Positions 46,047 through 61,420 of a DNA stretch of 64,000 nucleotides are shown piece by piece. Source of the stretch: Pseudomonadota bacterium (lineage in GTDB: Bacteria > Bdellovibrionota > UBA1018 > CAIMNF01); contig JAIXOQ010000005.1 of NCBI GenBank assembly GCA_027486675.1, positions 434,001 to 498,000 of the forward strand. Reading direction: 5' to 3'. The translations under genes and the position numbers were made by a program. Below the pieces are notes generated by a model. The model saw nothing but the letters and a program-made list of their open reading frames with translations, ran no database searches and had not been told where the DNA came from. Within the stretch, counting starts at the first letter, position 1, and every line of letters starts with the position of its first letter.

Positions 46047-47177
46047 TCACAAGATCTTTCCAGACCAAAGGTCTTCCAGAAAGATCTTCCAGGGGAGGTA
46101 GTCTGTGTTGGATCGCGTACCTTTAGATGGAAATCGACCCACAATCATTTTCTTAAATCGTGGGTGATCTTTTGTGAAGGTCTCAAGACCCTTGAAGTGC
46201 TCATCCTTCAGGCTTTTTGAGAATTTGATCTCGATTGCGAGTTCTTTGCCGACGATTAGGTCGACCTCTGCATCTCTTTGACGCCAAAAGCAGGTCTTGT
46301 CGTCTCGACCGTGGTAGCTCAGGTAGGTGCGGACCTCCTGAATAATAAATTGCTCAAAAGCTTGTCCTAAATCGGCATTTCCTTCGGAAAGGGGCAGCTT
46401 TTCAGAAAGGTGATTTGCAACACCGATATCAAAGATAAAAAACTTAGAGCGGGTTACAGCCTTTCTAGACGTCTTTGATCTGAAAGCAGGGAGCTCAAAT
46501 CCCATCAAGGTGTCTTTGAGGACTTCAATGTGATTTTCAATCGTGCGGACCGGTACGCCTGAATCTGATGCAAGCGCAGCAAAATTGAGTTCTTGCGCAT
46601 TTCCAAGCGCCATTGCCTCCAAAAAACGAACGAAACGTTCGATGTCCCTAACGGCTGCTTCGCGACGAATTTCCTCTGACACATAGGTTCTGACATAATT
46701 TTTGAGATCAATTTCTGGTTCTTTTGAAAGATAGATACGAGGGATGCCACCAAAATTGAGGTACCGAAGTAGGTTGAAGTCTGGGATCTCAGCCCAGCTG
46801 AGCGGAAAGAGGCGCGCCTCCCCGGCCCGCCCACCCAGCATATTAGCTCCGTCTTTCCTGAGCTTTCTGGCCGAGCTCCCGGTCAATAAAAATCTGTAGT
46901 CCTTGGACTCGATGAGTCTATGGACTTCATCCAGAATTTTTGGGAGTTTCTGTACCTCATCGATCACGATCAGTTTCTTTGTAGGCCCGACTTTCTCTGC
47001 CAGAGCTACGGGCCTTCGCGCCAGTTCGTCGTAAACATCGTCATTGAGTAGGTCTATGTATATTGCATCCGCCAGTTCTTCCCGAATCAGAGAACTTTTG
47101 CCAACGGATCTAGGACCAAAAAGAAAACAGCTGCGACTTTTGACTAGTTTCCTGAGATCGAGCTTTCTGACATACAT
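46047..47177 (-). CDS. AAA ATPase with C-terminal DUF4143 nuclease-like domain
   Basis: The protein has a P-loop FGPRSVGKSSLI near residue 20, Walker B LIVIDEVQKLP near 90 and LLTGSSARKLR as a sensor. A winged-helix-like segment and DUF4143 follow, with FEQFIIQEVRTYL...FWRQRDAEVDLIVGKELAIEIKFS; the E-VDLI-...-EIK pattern resembles the PD-(D/E)xK nuclease core. The frame opens at a TTG at 47204 inside a palindrome, but the ATG at 47177 (MYVRKLDLRKLV) is the likely start. The family is common and patchily spread in bacteria, with no firm role known to me. Its upstream region holds a perfect double palindrome. Confidence 0.85.
   Translation of the reverse strand: MYVRKLDLRKLVKSRSCFLFGPRSVGKSSLIREELADAIYIDLLNDDVYDELARRPVALAEKVGPTKKLIVIDEVQKLPKILDEVHRLIESKDYRFLLTGSSARKLRKDGANMLGGRAGEARLFPLSWAEIPDFNLLRYLNFGGIPRIYLSKEPEIDLKNYVRTYVSEEIRREAAVRDIERFVRFLEAMALGNAQELNFAALASDSGVPVRTIENHIEVLKDTLMGFELPAFRSKTSRKAVTRSKFFIFDIGVANHLSEKLPLSEGNADLGQAFEQFIIQEVRTYLSYHGRDDKTCFWRQRDAEVDLIVGKELAIEIKFSKSLKDEHFKGLETFTKDHPRFKKMIVGRFPSKGTRSNTDYLPWKIFLEDLWSGKIL
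46051..46088. repeat. Nested hairpin after rph, inside the facing ATPase gene
   Basis: AAGATCTTTC (46051-46060) pairs with GAAAGATCTT (46079-46088). Inside, AGACC (46062-46066) pairs with GGTCT (46070-46074) around AAA. It begins 9 bases after the rph stop and includes the last ATPase codons. It is probably a bidirectional termination or 3'-end hairpin without a T-run. Confidence 0.55.
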
Positions 47178-47199
47178 GAAACCAGGATAACAGGAATTA

Positions 47200-47258
47200 C
47201 CCAATCGGCAACGACTTGCCGATTATGCGGATAAATCGGCAAGTCGTTGCCGATTGGG
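47200..47258. repeat. Perfect 25-bp inverted repeat made of two tandem palindromes
   Basis: The bases 47200-47224 and 47234-47258 are exact reverse complements around a 9-bp spacer. Each half contains its own dyad: AATCGGCAA, four bases, TTGCCGATT (47203-47224 and 47234-47255). The four central bases are CGAC in one half and GTCG in the other, so the whole is symmetric. It lies 23 bp before the ATPase ATG and 9 bp after the DUF1302 stop, both on the minus strand. No T-run follows on either side. Confidence 0.85.
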
Positions 47259-47266
47259 CTGGTCCT

Positions 47267-48535
47267 CTAAAACCCGAATCTCGCCTCAAAGAACCCAGTC
47301 GAAGTGCTTCTGATCCGGCCAAAAAAGCTTAAAGTCGGCCCTGAATACCACTCAATACCCGTGATCAGTTTCCACGAATCGTTGAGGGCATAAGTGACTT
47401 TTGGCCGAACCAAGTGGTCCCCCGTTGTGACCCAGTGAATCCAAGCGACCTCAGACTCAAGCGTCTCATTCATGAATTTTGCACTCGGGCGAATGGATAC
47501 CCCGTGATTCATACCGACCAACTGTTGGGAGGTGATCGCACTTTGAAGTGCAAGAACTCTGGTCGTTGGATCGTTGATCTGGCTGAGGTCTGTAAAACCC
47601 TGAACATAACGATTGAGGTACTGAAGGTTGATCGAGAATTGATCCGTGAAAGAGCGCTCGATACCAAAGACCGTGAACAGGAACGGATTCTGCGCCAAAA
47701 CATTCCGACCACGCGAATCCGGGGTCAGTGTGTATGCACTTTCTACGCGAAGACCGTAACGATCCATGGTCCATGCGGCATCAAATCCAATCGTCTGGAT
47801 CAGCGGGAAGATGAGCTCCAGGTCGACGCCTGATGCAGTGACCTTCGGGCTTAGATCCGGGATTTTTGAATACCCGTGGTAGTAGGAGACGGATGCATCT
47901 AAGCCGCCTGACCCTGTGTGATCCCATTTTAGTGCATACTGCTGAATCGGAGTTTTAGGATCGACGTAAACAAAGTTAAATCCTGGCGCCACTGCAGGAA
48001 AAGGAAACTTCGGACTACGCCATTCAGGAAGCCAGATGGCCTTGATCCTCTCTTCACCTAAGTTCCAGGTCAGCTGTGTTGCAAAGACCCCGTTGCGCTG
48101 ATCCTCGTCGTCGGTCATGAGTCTCCTAAAGTCCCTGACGGAAAGATTGTCGGTTGGATTTACCTTATCCGCGCGGCCCCAAACGATGATCTGTCGGCCG
48201 ACTCTTAAGTCGAAGTCGCCAAAGCTGCGATCCGCATAGACTTCCCGGACTGTGCTGACGTGGGATGTGGACCTTGTCAGGTCCTCTCCTTGGATGTAGC
48301 CATCAAAATAGAACTTAGTGCCTAAGACTTCCTCCGGCCGCAATGTCAGCCAAGCGGAGCCGACTCCGAAATGTTTGTCTTGGGTGAATCTGCGGTCCTC
48401 ACTGAAGTATGCAGCCCGCAGTGATCCAGTGGCACCGAGCGTGTCTTTAATGAAAGATCCCTCAGCATTGGCATTGACGCTGAAGAGTACAGAACCAAAT
48501 GCAATCAGAGTGATGAGTGCAAACGAATGCGTCAT
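47267..48535 (-). CDS. DUF1302-like outer-membrane protein
   Basis: The 422-residue product has a signal peptide (ALITLIAFGSVLFSVNANA). The barrel-like sequence carries AYFSEDRRFTQDK, the block LRVGRQIIVWGRADKVNPTDNLSVRD and the C-terminus ARFGF. The VWG-AD--NPTD motif is typical of DUF1302 proteins, which occur with RND/MMPL permeases and LolA-like proteins. It starts 2 nt after the transporter gene, so the two are cotranscribed. Inferred role: the outer-membrane part of a lipid or hydrophobic-compound exporter. Confidence 0.85.
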   Translation of the reverse strand: MTHSFALITLIAFGSVLFSVNANAEGSFIKDTLGATGSLRAAYFSEDRRFTQDKHFGVGSAWLTLRPEEVLGTKFYFDGYIQGEDLTRSTSHVSTVREVYADRSFGDFDLRVGRQIIVWGRADKVNPTDNLSVRDFRRLMTDDEDQRNGVFATQLTWNLGEERIKAIWLPEWRSPKFPFPAVAPGFNFVYVDPKTPIQQYALKWDHTGSGGLDASVSYYHGYSKIPDLSPKVTASGVDLELIFPLIQTIGFDAAWTMDRYGLRVESAYTLTPDSRGRNVLAQNPFLFTVFGIERSFTDQFSINLQYLNRYVQGFTDLSQINDPTTRVLALQSAITSQQLVGMNHGVSIRPSAKFMNETLESEVAWIHWVTTGDHLVRPKVTYALNDSWKLITGIEWYSGPTLSFFGRIRSTSTGFFEARFGF

Positions 48536-48537
48536 GA

Positions 48538-51500
48538 CTATCGCTCCAGGGAGCGAGCAGTGAAGACGTCATCCTTGATGCCCACGTTGGCTTTGTAATT
48601 CGTGAACTCAATGATGGTTTTATGTTCTGTCTGTACGTTCTGGGTTTCGATTTCCATGGGCTGCCATTTGTTATTCTTGGCATCCACTTTTTCTAATTTG
48701 CGTGCTGAGAATTTTTTAAGCAGTTGTCCATTGAGGTCAAACCATTCACCCTTCACGGCTACAAAACTTTCTTGATCAATCCAGGACACCCTTTTTGAAT
48801 AGCCCGAATTTTCACCCACTTCTGGACGAGCAGGGGTTGATTCCATTTTATAGGCTTTACGTCCTTCGATCGTTTCTTCACCCAATAACTTGTGATTCCA
48901 GTCTTCGACCTTGTGGCCAATGACATCCCCGTAGGAAAAATCTGTGCCTACAAAGGCGTCTCTTTTGTTGGAAGACACCAGCCGGCGTACCTTCTTCATG
49001 GCAGGCAAGTAGATCCAAATATCATCATCGCCTTTAGAATGTTCGATGAGCAGGGTCTTGGTGCCCTTCACATCCGCTGGAGATTCAAAGGTCACTAAGC
49101 GCTGATTGTCTGTTGTTCCAGCGATTAGCTTGGTGGAGCCCTTGGTTTGCCTCACACGGGTTTGGCCTGAAGCATTAATAAGCCTAAAGGTGGAGTCCGA
49201 GGTAGAATCAGCAACCTTTGATACAACGAAGGCCTTTTCTGCGATTTCTTTAGCGGTAAGCGCCGGAGCCGCTTGAGCGACCAAGGCGGTTGTCATCAGG
49301 ATAGCGATGACTGCGGTTGCTGCTAGTTTTGGATTCATCATGTCTTTCTTCCTTCCTTCGAAGATAAATTTTGGTCGCAAAGTAAATACAAGAGATGGGA
49401 ATAGAGTCAGCGCAGTAAACGAGCTCACTAACATTGCAATTCCAATCAGGAACCCCATCCAGACGTGGATCATGAATCCTATCGAAAGCATCAGGACTCC
49501 GAATCCGCCTGCGACTGCAGTCGATACAAAGAGGGCTGCTTTTCCAGCGGAACTAAAGGCCCGTTTTAGCGCTTCCTCTTCGGTACCACCGGCGCGCAGC
49601 TCTTCCCGCATCCGGTAGCTCATGTAGATGCCGTAATCCGCACCAATTCCAACTGCGATTGCGGATACTAGGGCGGTCGCAATTTGGAGAGGGATTCCTA
49701 GAAGACCCATGACACCAAAGTTCACAAATACCGCCGCTAAGAGTGGGATCAGAATCAGTAGCCCGGCCAATAGAGATCTAAAGACGAGTGAGGAGACAAT
49801 AAACACTGCAGTCATGATTTGCAGAATGTTTAAGATCTTCTCTTTGATCATGATCTGATTGAGAGCGACTCCGCCCAAGGCTCCGCCACCGACCGAAATC
49901 TTCACGTCGGATGGAAAAGTCTTCTTTGAGAACTCAACAGCATCATTGGCGATCTTAGTGATGATGCTGGATTGGTCGGTACGAATGAAGGCGGTGATGA
50001 GGCCCCTTTGGTAGGTGTAGTCCACGTAGGAGTCAAAATCTCCGGGCTCGCCTGAGTTTGAATAGAGCAAGAGGTATTGAGCTACCAGGTCCTGGGACTC
50101 TGGAACTTGATAGAAGCTCGCCTGGTCCCCATTCATCGATTGATTCATCTTTTTAATGAAATCAACAATGGAGATCGTCTTGCCGACTTCCTTGTTCTGC
50201 TCGATGTGGCGTTGTAGACCTTCCATTGCTTTTAGAATGTCTGGACGTTTAATTGAATCCTCTGTGACGCCATCCACCACAACATAGATGGGGTTTGTCC
50301 CAGCCATTTTTTGATTGATGACGTCATCGTCCACACGTTCAGGGATAGTTCCGTAGAAATAGCCCTTTTGACTGTTTTCAATCTTGAGCCAAAAGCCGCC
50401 CAAAGAAAGCGCTGTCACTGCGATTGCAGTCCCAATGTATACATTTTTACGGCTGTGGCGTGTCCAGGAATAGAAGCGCAGGGTGAGTCGATCCCAGAAG
50501 CTGATGTGCTGTTCCCGATCCACTTCCCTTTGGGATGGAGGAGGAAGCATCACACGAAGTGCGGGAATAAATGTTAGTTCTAAGATCAGAGCGCTTAAGA
50601 CCCCCGAACCCGCAAATATTCCAAACGTGCGGATGGACTTAATCTCAAACACCATCAAGGAAAAGAACCCTAACGAAGCAACCATGCAGGCGACAAACAT
50701 CACGGGCCCAACCTTAGTGAGTGATCTCAGAACGGCTTCAGTACTGCGTTGATGCGGCGTTAGGCCGGGCTCAGACTTAGAGAGATGCGCATATTCCTCA
50801 TAGTACCGCTTTAAGATCTGGACTGCGTGACCCGCTGCGATCGCTAAAATCAATATGGGTGTTGATGCGTTAAATACATCAAAAGGTTCTTTCAGTAGGC
50901 CGAGTGCTCCGACGGACCAGATCACGGCCAGTAGTGCTGTCACAAGCGGCAGTATCAGAGCCTGTCTGGTACGGAATGCTTCGTAGTGAATCAGACCAAT
51001 GATGAGCAGGGCGATTGGGAAAAGAAATCCCATGCGTCCCGAGAATCTTTCAAGGAGAGCTAAGAATACGGGAAGACCAGAAACGCGGATCTCGACCGTA
51101 TCGTCTAACTCAGGCGCAATGATGGCTTTTGCTTCTGCGGCGATTGCCTGAAAGCCGCCTGGAATTTTCTTAAACTCGGCGACAATCTGAGTTGTCTTTT
51201 CATCTGAGGATGCAAGTAAGCCGGAATACGCAGGATTCTTTGCGATGGCTTCGCGGATGCGGTTAAAGCCAGCCTCATCGGTTGGAACTTTCTCCATCAT
51301 CGGCTCAACGCTCATGCCATCAGCGGTACCGGTGATGTTTTTCGCTTTGCGGGCCGCAATACTGATGATGTTGGCGTGAACAGTGCTTGGGGATTGATTC
51401 AATGCACGCGTAATGCGGGAGACTTTTTCAAGCACATTTTGTTGATAAATAGTGCCTTCCTTTGGACTTACGGCAATCACGACCGTGAAGCGGTTCCCAA

Positions 51501-51678
51501 AGATCTTTTCTACAAAGTTGCCGGTTGCAATATAGGGGTGGGTCTGCGGAAGAGCGCTGTCTGGATCAATGATGACCTGGAGGGAGGAAAGCTGAGCTGC
51601 TAAAACCACCGTGATGACGCCCGTGGCTGCGATCACTGCTTTTCTGTAACGAATTACCCATTGGATCCAAGTCTTCAT
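48538..51678 (-). CDS. MMPL/RND-type transporter fused to a LolA-like domain
   Basis: The 1046-residue protein joins two usually separate proteins. Residues 1-779 are an MMPL/RND exporter with about 12 membrane segments in two sets, each after a periplasmic domain; conserved parts include AGHAVQILKRYYEEY and AVGIGADYGIYMSYRMREEL. From residue 780 a complete signal peptide-like segment (MNPKLAATAVIAILMTTALVAQAA) leads into a LolA-like/outer-membrane-lipoprotein-sorting domain (DIWIYLPAMKKVRRL, FSYGDVIG). A strong AAGGAAGG lies nine bases before the paired Met codons at 49336-49341, so the second part may also be made as its own 267-residue periplasmic protein. Inferred export of lipids or hydrophobic compounds. 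Confidence 0.87.
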   Translation of the reverse strand: MKTWIQWVIRYRKAVIAATGVITVVLAAQLSSLQVIIDPDSALPQTHPYIATGNFVEKIFGNRFTVVIAVSPKEGTIYQQNVLEKVSRITRALNQSPSTVHANIISIAARKAKNITGTADGMSVEPMMEKVPTDEAGFNRIREAIAKNPAYSGLLASSDEKTTQIVAEFKKIPGGFQAIAAEAKAIIAPELDDTVEIRVSGLPVFLALLERFSGRMGFLFPIALLIIGLIHYEAFRTRQALILPLVTALLAVIWSVGALGLLKEPFDVFNASTPILILAIAAGHAVQILKRYYEEYAHLSKSEPGLTPHQRSTEAVLRSLTKVGPVMFVACMVASLGFFSLMVFEIKSIRTFGIFAGSGVLSALILELTFIPALRVMLPPPSQREVDREQHISFWDRLTLRFYSWTRHSRKNVYIGTAIAVTALSLGGFWLKIENSQKGYFYGTIPERVDDDVINQKMAGTNPIYVVVDGVTEDSIKRPDILKAMEGLQRHIEQNKEVGKTISIVDFIKKMNQSMNGDQASFYQVPESQDLVAQYLLLYSNSGEPGDFDSYVDYTYQRGLITAFIRTDQSSIITKIANDAVEFSKKTFPSDVKISVGGGALGGVALNQIMIKEKILNILQIMTAVFIVSSLVFRSLLAGLLILIPLLAAVFVNFGVMGLLGIPLQIATALVSAIAVGIGADYGIYMSYRMREELRAGGTEEEALKRAFSSAGKAALFVSTAVAGGFGVLMLSIGFMIHVWMGFLIGIAMLVSSFTALTLFPSLVFTLRPKFIFEGRKKDMMNPKLAATAVIAILMTTALVAQAAPALTAKEIAEKAFVVSKVADSTSDSTFRLINASGQTRVRQTKGSTKLIAGTTDNQRLVTFESPADVKGTKTLLIEHSKGDDDIWIYLPAMKKVRRLVSSNKRDAFVGTDFSYGDVIGHKVEDWNHKLLGEETIEGRKAYKMESTPARPEVGENSGYSKRVSWIDQESFVAVKGEWFDLNGQLLKKFSARKLEKVDAKNNKWQPMEIETQNVQTEHKTIIEFTNYKANVGIKDDVFTARSLER

Positions 51679-61241: not shown

Positions 61242-61420
61242 GGGGGAGCTTGGGACCAGTAAAAATAACATCTGGACCCGACAGTCATAGACCCCGGGAG
61301 CTGTTCCTGGTTGGTGGTGAGCATGCCCGATACTTCGGGAAGCCTAAAGCCAACATACGGCGCCCACTTAATAGATTTAGGGGTTCCAATGGTCTTGCTG
61401 GTTTCCAAGCTCAAAATTTT
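61242..61420 (+). ncRNA. ssrS: 6S RNA
   Basis: 6S RNA mimics an open promoter and sequesters the housekeeping RNA polymerase. The closing stem is perfect in two blocks: GAGCTTGG (61246-61253) with CCAAGCTC (61405-61412), and ACCAG (61255-61259) with CTGGT (61398-61402). The apical half carries GGTTGGTG then AGCATGC, and a hairpin CCCGA-TACT-TCGGG (61326-61339) followed by AAGCCTAAA, closely matching E. coli 6S RNA (GGTTGGTGAGCATGC, then a Cys-rich stem and AGCCTTAAA). The length of about 175 nt is normal. AAAATTTTTT after the stem looks like the 3' end. A weak promoter (TTGGTT, 16 bp, TGTTAT) precedes it. Exact ends are estimates. Confidence 0.87.

Follow-up and report, generated by a model that had tools for sequence, protein, structure and literature searches.

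The closest described counterpart of the site analysed here is the control region of C.Csp231I, in which two dyads lie on the controller's own promoter, the gene is leaderless and autoregulation is linked to a nuclease (PMC4321490, PMC4824078). Its 15-bp sites are separated by an 18-bp spacer, which makes 33 bp from centre to centre, and the length of this spacer matters but its sequence does not (PMC4321490, PMC4824078). On the protein side, PDC-S01, an ATPase fused to a PD-(D/E)XK domain, is the fourth most common defence candidate in prokaryotes, and experimental validation is pending for most such candidates (PMC12988326). Winged-helix repressors of the SmtB/CzrA type bind dyads on their own promoters as dimers, and Orc1/Cdc6, an AAA+ plus winged helix protein, has ORB boxes beside its own gene.

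The locus described here, found in a window of 64 kb (the whole stretch of DNA that was analysed), resembles each of these systems in part. Like C.Csp231I, it displays two dyads with a long fixed spacing on the presumed controller's own promoter, together with a predicted leaderless transcript. However, C proteins are small separate HTH proteins that regulate a restriction-enzyme operon, whereas the presumed controller is here one domain, a winged helix, of a 376-aa AAA ATPase/PD-(D/E)XK protein without a methyltransferase gene beside it, and each subfamily has an operator sequence of its own. Nor do the neighbours (RNase PH, an outer-membrane DUF1302-like protein and an RND transporter) match what a restriction-modification controller would require. 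By analogy, the system would work like C.Csp231I, yet it is not a member of that family. With PDC-S01 it shares the protein family, the fusion of an ATPase to PD-(D/E)XK and the one-gene organization, but neither regulation nor an operator is mentioned in the relevant sections of PMC12988326, and defence activity remains unvalidated. Winged-helix repressors of the ArsR/SmtB and MarR types (SmtB, CzrA) match the middle part of the predicted structure, although the winged helix is here embedded between an ATPase and a nuclease-like domain. Finally, in contrast to Orc1/Cdc6, no origin features were seen, the paralogues are multicopy with different sites, and the sites overlap the promoter. Our interpretation, which we consider likely in the absence of binding or expression data, is that the palindrome serves as a two-site operator for autoregulation and that the winged helix of the ATPase itself recognizes it.

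The palindrome sits between the end of the RND/DUF1302 operon, which terminates 8 bp before it (stop at 47267), and the ATG of the ATPase gene (47177), all on the minus strand (Table 1). Its arms (47200-47224 and 47234-47258) are complementary at 25 of 25 positions, and it is built from a pair of 22-bp dyads, AATCGGCAA-N4-TTGCCGATT, spaced 31 bp from start to start. The structure is real and not due to chance, since none of 100 sequence shuffles yielded two such dyads, its folding z is -10, and it is the sole perfect inverted repeat of the 64 kb with arms of at least 11 bp and a loop of up to 20. Its predicted RNA fold is very stable (-64.6 kcal/mol). A search of the 2.7-Mb genome with up to three mismatches revealed no second copy, bar one three-mismatch site that is about what chance would give.

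Table 1. Position of the operator, promoter and protein features, numbered along the window.
Feature	Position	Strand	Remark
Whole perfect inverted repeat	47200..47258	.	25-bp arms and 9-nt centre
Distal operator dyad, site A, AATCGGCAA-N4-TTGCCGATT	47234..47255	.	Conserved in 12/12 clade members
Proximal operator dyad, site B	47203..47224	.	Exactly 31 bp from site A; overlaps -35 region
-35-like TTGCCG (right half of proximal dyad)	47206..47211	-	16 bp before -10; position inferred from family promoter pattern
-10-like TATCCT, 6 nt before ATG; predicted transcription start at A of ATG	47184..47189	-	
DUF4143 ATPase gene, 376 aa (AAA_14 + winged helix + DUF4143/PD-(D/E)XK); PADLOC PDC-S01	46047..47177	-	
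AAA_14 ATPase domain, residues 15-131 (Walker A K27, Walker B D73 E74, R117)	46785..47135	-	
Predicted winged helix-turn-helix, residues 199-247	46437..46583	-	AlphaFold2 secondary structure and Foldseek
Predicted recognition helix and N-cap, residues 209-222, clade-specific P209, R211	46512..46553	-	
PD-(D/E)XK-like domain, residues 268-347 (E281, D306, E316, K318)	46137..46376	-	Cf. PMC12988326

A first-pass annotation had described a perfect 25-bp inverted repeat built from two 22-bp dyads without a T-run, and these points held; the palindrome, which it placed 23 bp before the likely ATG, is separated from it by 22 nt (ATG at 47175-47177). Its statement that no known promoter geometry explains the palindrome needs correction, as the region reads TTGCCG-16 bp-TATCCT-6 nt-ATG and the arrangement from -10 to ATG is family-wide. 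Indeed, TANNNT at -12 from the ATG is present in 34 of 113 family genes versus 13 of 323 control genes, and the family genes lack a Shine-Dalgarno signal. Judging from this sequence pattern, these genes look leaderless, with transcripts predicted to start at the A of the ATG. With such a predicted start and a -10 box just before the ATG, the dyads fall within promoter DNA and precede the expected mRNA. Moreover, G-T and A-C mismatches are equally frequent in the dyads (7 and 6, respectively), which gives no sign of selection on RNA pairing. Leaderless promoters and equal mismatches point to a site acting at the DNA level and not to an RNA hairpin. The RNA explanation was rejected on these grounds and for want of any Rfam family at the palindrome, despite the stability of the hairpin.

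The downstream gene belongs to the PDC-S01/DUF4143 family by profile match (PADLOC PDC-S01, E=1.7e-55; Pfam DUF4143, 1.7e-26; AAA_14, 3.8e-23). It has the ATPase fused to PD-(D/E)XK with intact catalytic residues that PDC-S01 calls for, and K27, D73, E74, D306, E316 and K318 are kept in 115-122 of 122 homologues. The genome of the window contains 15 matches to this ATPase, and homologues are present in 48 of the 58 genomes searched. No relatives with a solved structure were found by sequence. The AlphaFold2 model, built from seven sequences, is only fair (mean pLDDT of 66.5, about 67-83 around the winged helix); it predicts helices at 199-206 and 210-222 plus a wing. Foldseek likened the middle part of this model to SmtB/CzrA-type repressors with a probability of up to 0.99 and the whole model, weakly, to Apaf-1/CED-4; E-values were poor, at 8e-3 for the best whole-model match and about 0.1 for the repressors.

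Twelve homologues from many genera form one clade (support 0.886, pairwise identity 0.45-0.67). Allowing mismatches, all 12 carry, shortly before the gene, two dyads of the form WWTCGGCAA-N4-TTGCCGAWW at a spacing of exactly 31 bp. This distance corresponds to three helical turns of DNA. As expected of a two-site operator, the two dyads are alike, keep a constant helical spacing and lie on the predicted promoter of the gene. The sequence of the 9-bp spacer varies among members, the distance from the dyads to the start codon ranges from 27 to more than 70 bp, and the dyads overlap the predicted -35/-10 region in most of them. The neighbours of the clade members are unrelated, except for other DUF4143 genes and one pair common to two loci, and no regulator gene common to these neighbourhoods was found. 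The operator is conserved with the gene and not with the neighbourhood. Since both stay together across unrelated surroundings, the earlier suggestion of a self-contained genetic unit fits. As a separate observation, divergent DUF4143 gene pairs share one intergenic double dyad in L055 (3227-3450) and in the upstream region of L005.

The pattern extends to the family at large. We scored as operator-like any inverted repeat with a score of at least 9, or any direct repeat of 30-33 bp, within 110 bp upstream of the gene. Such a repeat precedes 61 of 122 homologues (50%). By comparison, it was seen in 3 of 121 stretches lying farther upstream, in 8 of 120 downstream regions and before 16 of 357 other genes from the same genomes (4%; Fisher p = 4e-28), the control genes being taken from the window and twenty 20-kb stretches. 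It is still found for 51 of 110 homologues once the focal clade is left out. The direct repeats are mostly spaced by 31 or 32 bp (19 genes), with almost none at other spacings, and the repeat sequences differ between subfamilies (e.g. CCAAATAGAAACTCAGTT, CAGTTTATCGGGATAAAAT and ATCAACC-N7-GGTTGAT). Among the Myxococcota homologues around Hyalangium, an inverted repeat was seen in 19 of 60 cases versus 2 of 60 further upstream (p=3e-5); the 31-bp period was not significant in this group. Single viral-contig homologues with upstream repeats agree with the family pattern, as do plasmid homologues of Treponema, Simkania and Allochromatium, the plasmid of Treponema saccharophilum bearing two identical units 32 bp apart. 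No upstream repeat was seen for two Thermus homologues, and half of the homologues lack an operator at the thresholds used. It is important to recall that start codons were estimated, that many genomes are incomplete, and that phylogenetic dependence was handled solely by omitting the focal clade.

Several side observations concern the same family. A similar CCTTGCA...TGCAAGG palindrome lies just before the DUF4143 start codon on a Bosea plasmid (L274, upstream of 562) and on viral contigs (L265-L267), and one record (L140, 9971-19446) contains five DUF4143-type genes within 9.5 kb. The possibility that private operators are selected against cross-talk between paralogues was rejected, as operators of same-genome paralogues are no more different than those of between-genome pairs.

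An unbiased scan for the exact double dyad over 84,980 species genomes yielded 19 stretches. In all nine Bdellovibrionota-type records (L049, L051, L053, L055, L057, L061, L062, L063 and L066), the double dyad immediately precedes a DUF4143 gene; in L053, the available stretch stops just inside this gene, and its first codons match. The remaining records (Thiobacillus, Methylocaldum, Hyalangium, Novosphingobium and others) have no adjoining DUF4143 gene. With up to two mismatches, the double dyad occurs in 9 of 55 genomes of the window's order, exactly once in each, and a reversed-pattern control gave none in the same 55 genomes. No phage with the same double site was found in IMG/VR. One orphan double dyad (L048, 7834-7880), beside which no DUF4143 gene was found, belongs to a MAG with 20 DUF4143 matches elsewhere; a reading frame on one side of it resembles, by eye, the end of a HipB-like protein. 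A Thiobacillus MAG (L064, 3112-4874) contains six CGGCAA-N4-TTGCCG palindrome pairs in 1.8 kb, an array of the dispersed-repeat type that is unrelated to DUF4143.

The first-pass annotation had proposed that homologues be examined for upstream palindromes with varying sequence and kept symmetry, and the outcome is clearly positive. Of the two results that would have refuted it, an absence of palindromes upstream of homologues was not observed, and a dispersed repeat beside unrelated genes was not encountered in the window's genome or order. Among the functions it listed, a two-site operator for autoregulation is the best supported, without experimental demonstration of binding or repression; a cruciform is not needed, and a role as a DNA mark recognized by the ATPase, beyond autoregulation, is neither shown nor excluded.

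Which protein binds the dyads can only be inferred. Three residues alone (P209, R211 and R348) are fully conserved in the clade and rare outside it (<0.25), and two of them, P209 and R211, begin or cap the predicted recognition helix. In the sister group, whose operator differs, a lysine occupies both 209 and 211 in three of the four members. Considering all pairs and correcting for overall identity, the window of residues 208-214 shows the highest partial correlation with operator similarity among all 7-residue windows. The helix stays first when clade-internal pairs are removed, with 2 of 500 permutations as high for residues 208-214; when all clade genes are removed, residues 291-297 take the lead and the recognition helix falls to eighth place. 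With a partial r of about 0.07, the co-variation is weak, and we regard it as supportive but modest evidence, which backs binding by the gene's own product only indirectly in the absence of binding data.

In the mechanism we propose, a dimer of the DUF4143 ATPase would occupy each 22-bp dyad by means of its winged helix. The two dimers, separated by 31 bp or three helical turns, would lie on one face of the DNA and bind cooperatively across the predicted leaderless promoter. The bound protein would limit its own synthesis, and each subfamily would have its private operator sequence, making gene and operator a portable one-gene unit. The unrelated neighbours and the lack of a second genomic copy favour a single target, the gene itself. 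The dyads, their 31-bp spacing, their conservation in the clade, the change of sequence with kept symmetry and period, and the overlap with the predicted promoter are established; the ATPase as binder, the binding of two dimers and repression are inferences without experimental data.

The best-surviving alternative, which we nonetheless judge unlikely, is that another host regulator, in control of DUF4143 genes, binds the operator. Binding by the ATPase has not been shown, and two dyads three turns apart would suit any dimeric repressor. However, operator sequences differ from one ATPase subfamily to the next and follow the recognition helix best; this genome has no second copy of the operator, and the clade neighbourhoods have no regulator gene in common. 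Somewhat less plausible is a site serving mainly as a recognition target (a DNA mark, an anchor or an origin-like element such as Orc1/Cdc6 with ORB boxes or iterons), with gene control being secondary. The combination of AAA+, winged helix and intact nuclease motif in one protein, and dyads in direct-repeat register beside its own gene, would be compatible with this role, but the sites overlap the predicted promoter, the start looks leaderless in the family, only one copy occurs per genome, and no replication or partition gene was recognized among the identified neighbouring genes.

That the palindrome acts as an intrinsic terminator, or as a hairpin at the mRNA end, for the upstream RND-DUF1302 operon is very improbable and largely refuted. 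The palindrome comes right after the stop codon at 47267 and its RNA fold is very stable, and an incidental action on read-through transcripts remains possible. Nevertheless, a GC-rich hairpin followed by a T-run is not what is found, there being no T-run, and the palindrome is absent from the terminator scan. DUF4143 genes in other neighbourhoods do have the palindrome, and the idea is removed because orthologous RND-DUF1302-TetR operons in two relatives (G002 and G010, RND 68-69% identical) have neither palindrome nor ATPase gene. A dispersed palindromic repeat (REP-like) or mobile-element end, suggested by the CGGCAA-N4-TTGCCG arrays dispersed in Thiobacillus and probably Methylocaldum, is all but excluded and is refuted for this lineage, in which the element is unique in its own genome instead of REP-like in many copies, occurs once per genome in the order, always at DUF4143, and keeps its rigid 31-bp pairing.

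Other attempts and observations concern the surroundings of the locus. An operator of the nearby TetR gene was rejected, as no related dyad occurs elsewhere in the window, and an empty-site comparison provided no clean empty site, the genes around RND and rph being arranged differently in relatives. A single 1046-aa ORF (48538-51678, minus strand) encodes an MMPL/RND transporter fused with a LolA-like domain and adjoins the DUF1302 gene and a divergent TetR gene, with same-order orthologues in two relatives. The window also includes a 6S RNA gene (61243-61416, plus strand; Rfam RF00013, 64.5 bits).

A bolder reading, which we regard as unlikely, would make the private double palindrome an identity tag that diversifies with the recognition helix of a sequence-specific DNA-binding AAA ATPase/nuclease. 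The site would be both operator and address, holding the nuclease inactive, and lost occupancy would trigger synthesis and activity. As part of the same doubtful reading, DUF4143/PDC-S01 would be a very large family of such one-gene systems.

To conclude, the two-site autoregulatory operator remains our preferred reading. No report of an operator for these genes was found in the open-access literature searched (most subscription papers were outside its scope), in which DUF4143 is hardly named and nothing was found on PDC-S01 control. What appears to be new is that the genes of a very common but untested candidate anti-virus ATPase family carry, on their promoter, a private pair of mirror-image sites about 31 bases apart, most likely for control of each gene by its own protein. 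This conserved two-site operator provides a first direct handle on PDC-S01 and names the DNA to be tested for each subfamily. It predicts sequence-specific DNA binding by these ATPases and suggests that they are kept at a low level of expression, as restriction enzymes and toxins are. A family named for its nuclease and ATPase may partly consist of transcription regulators.
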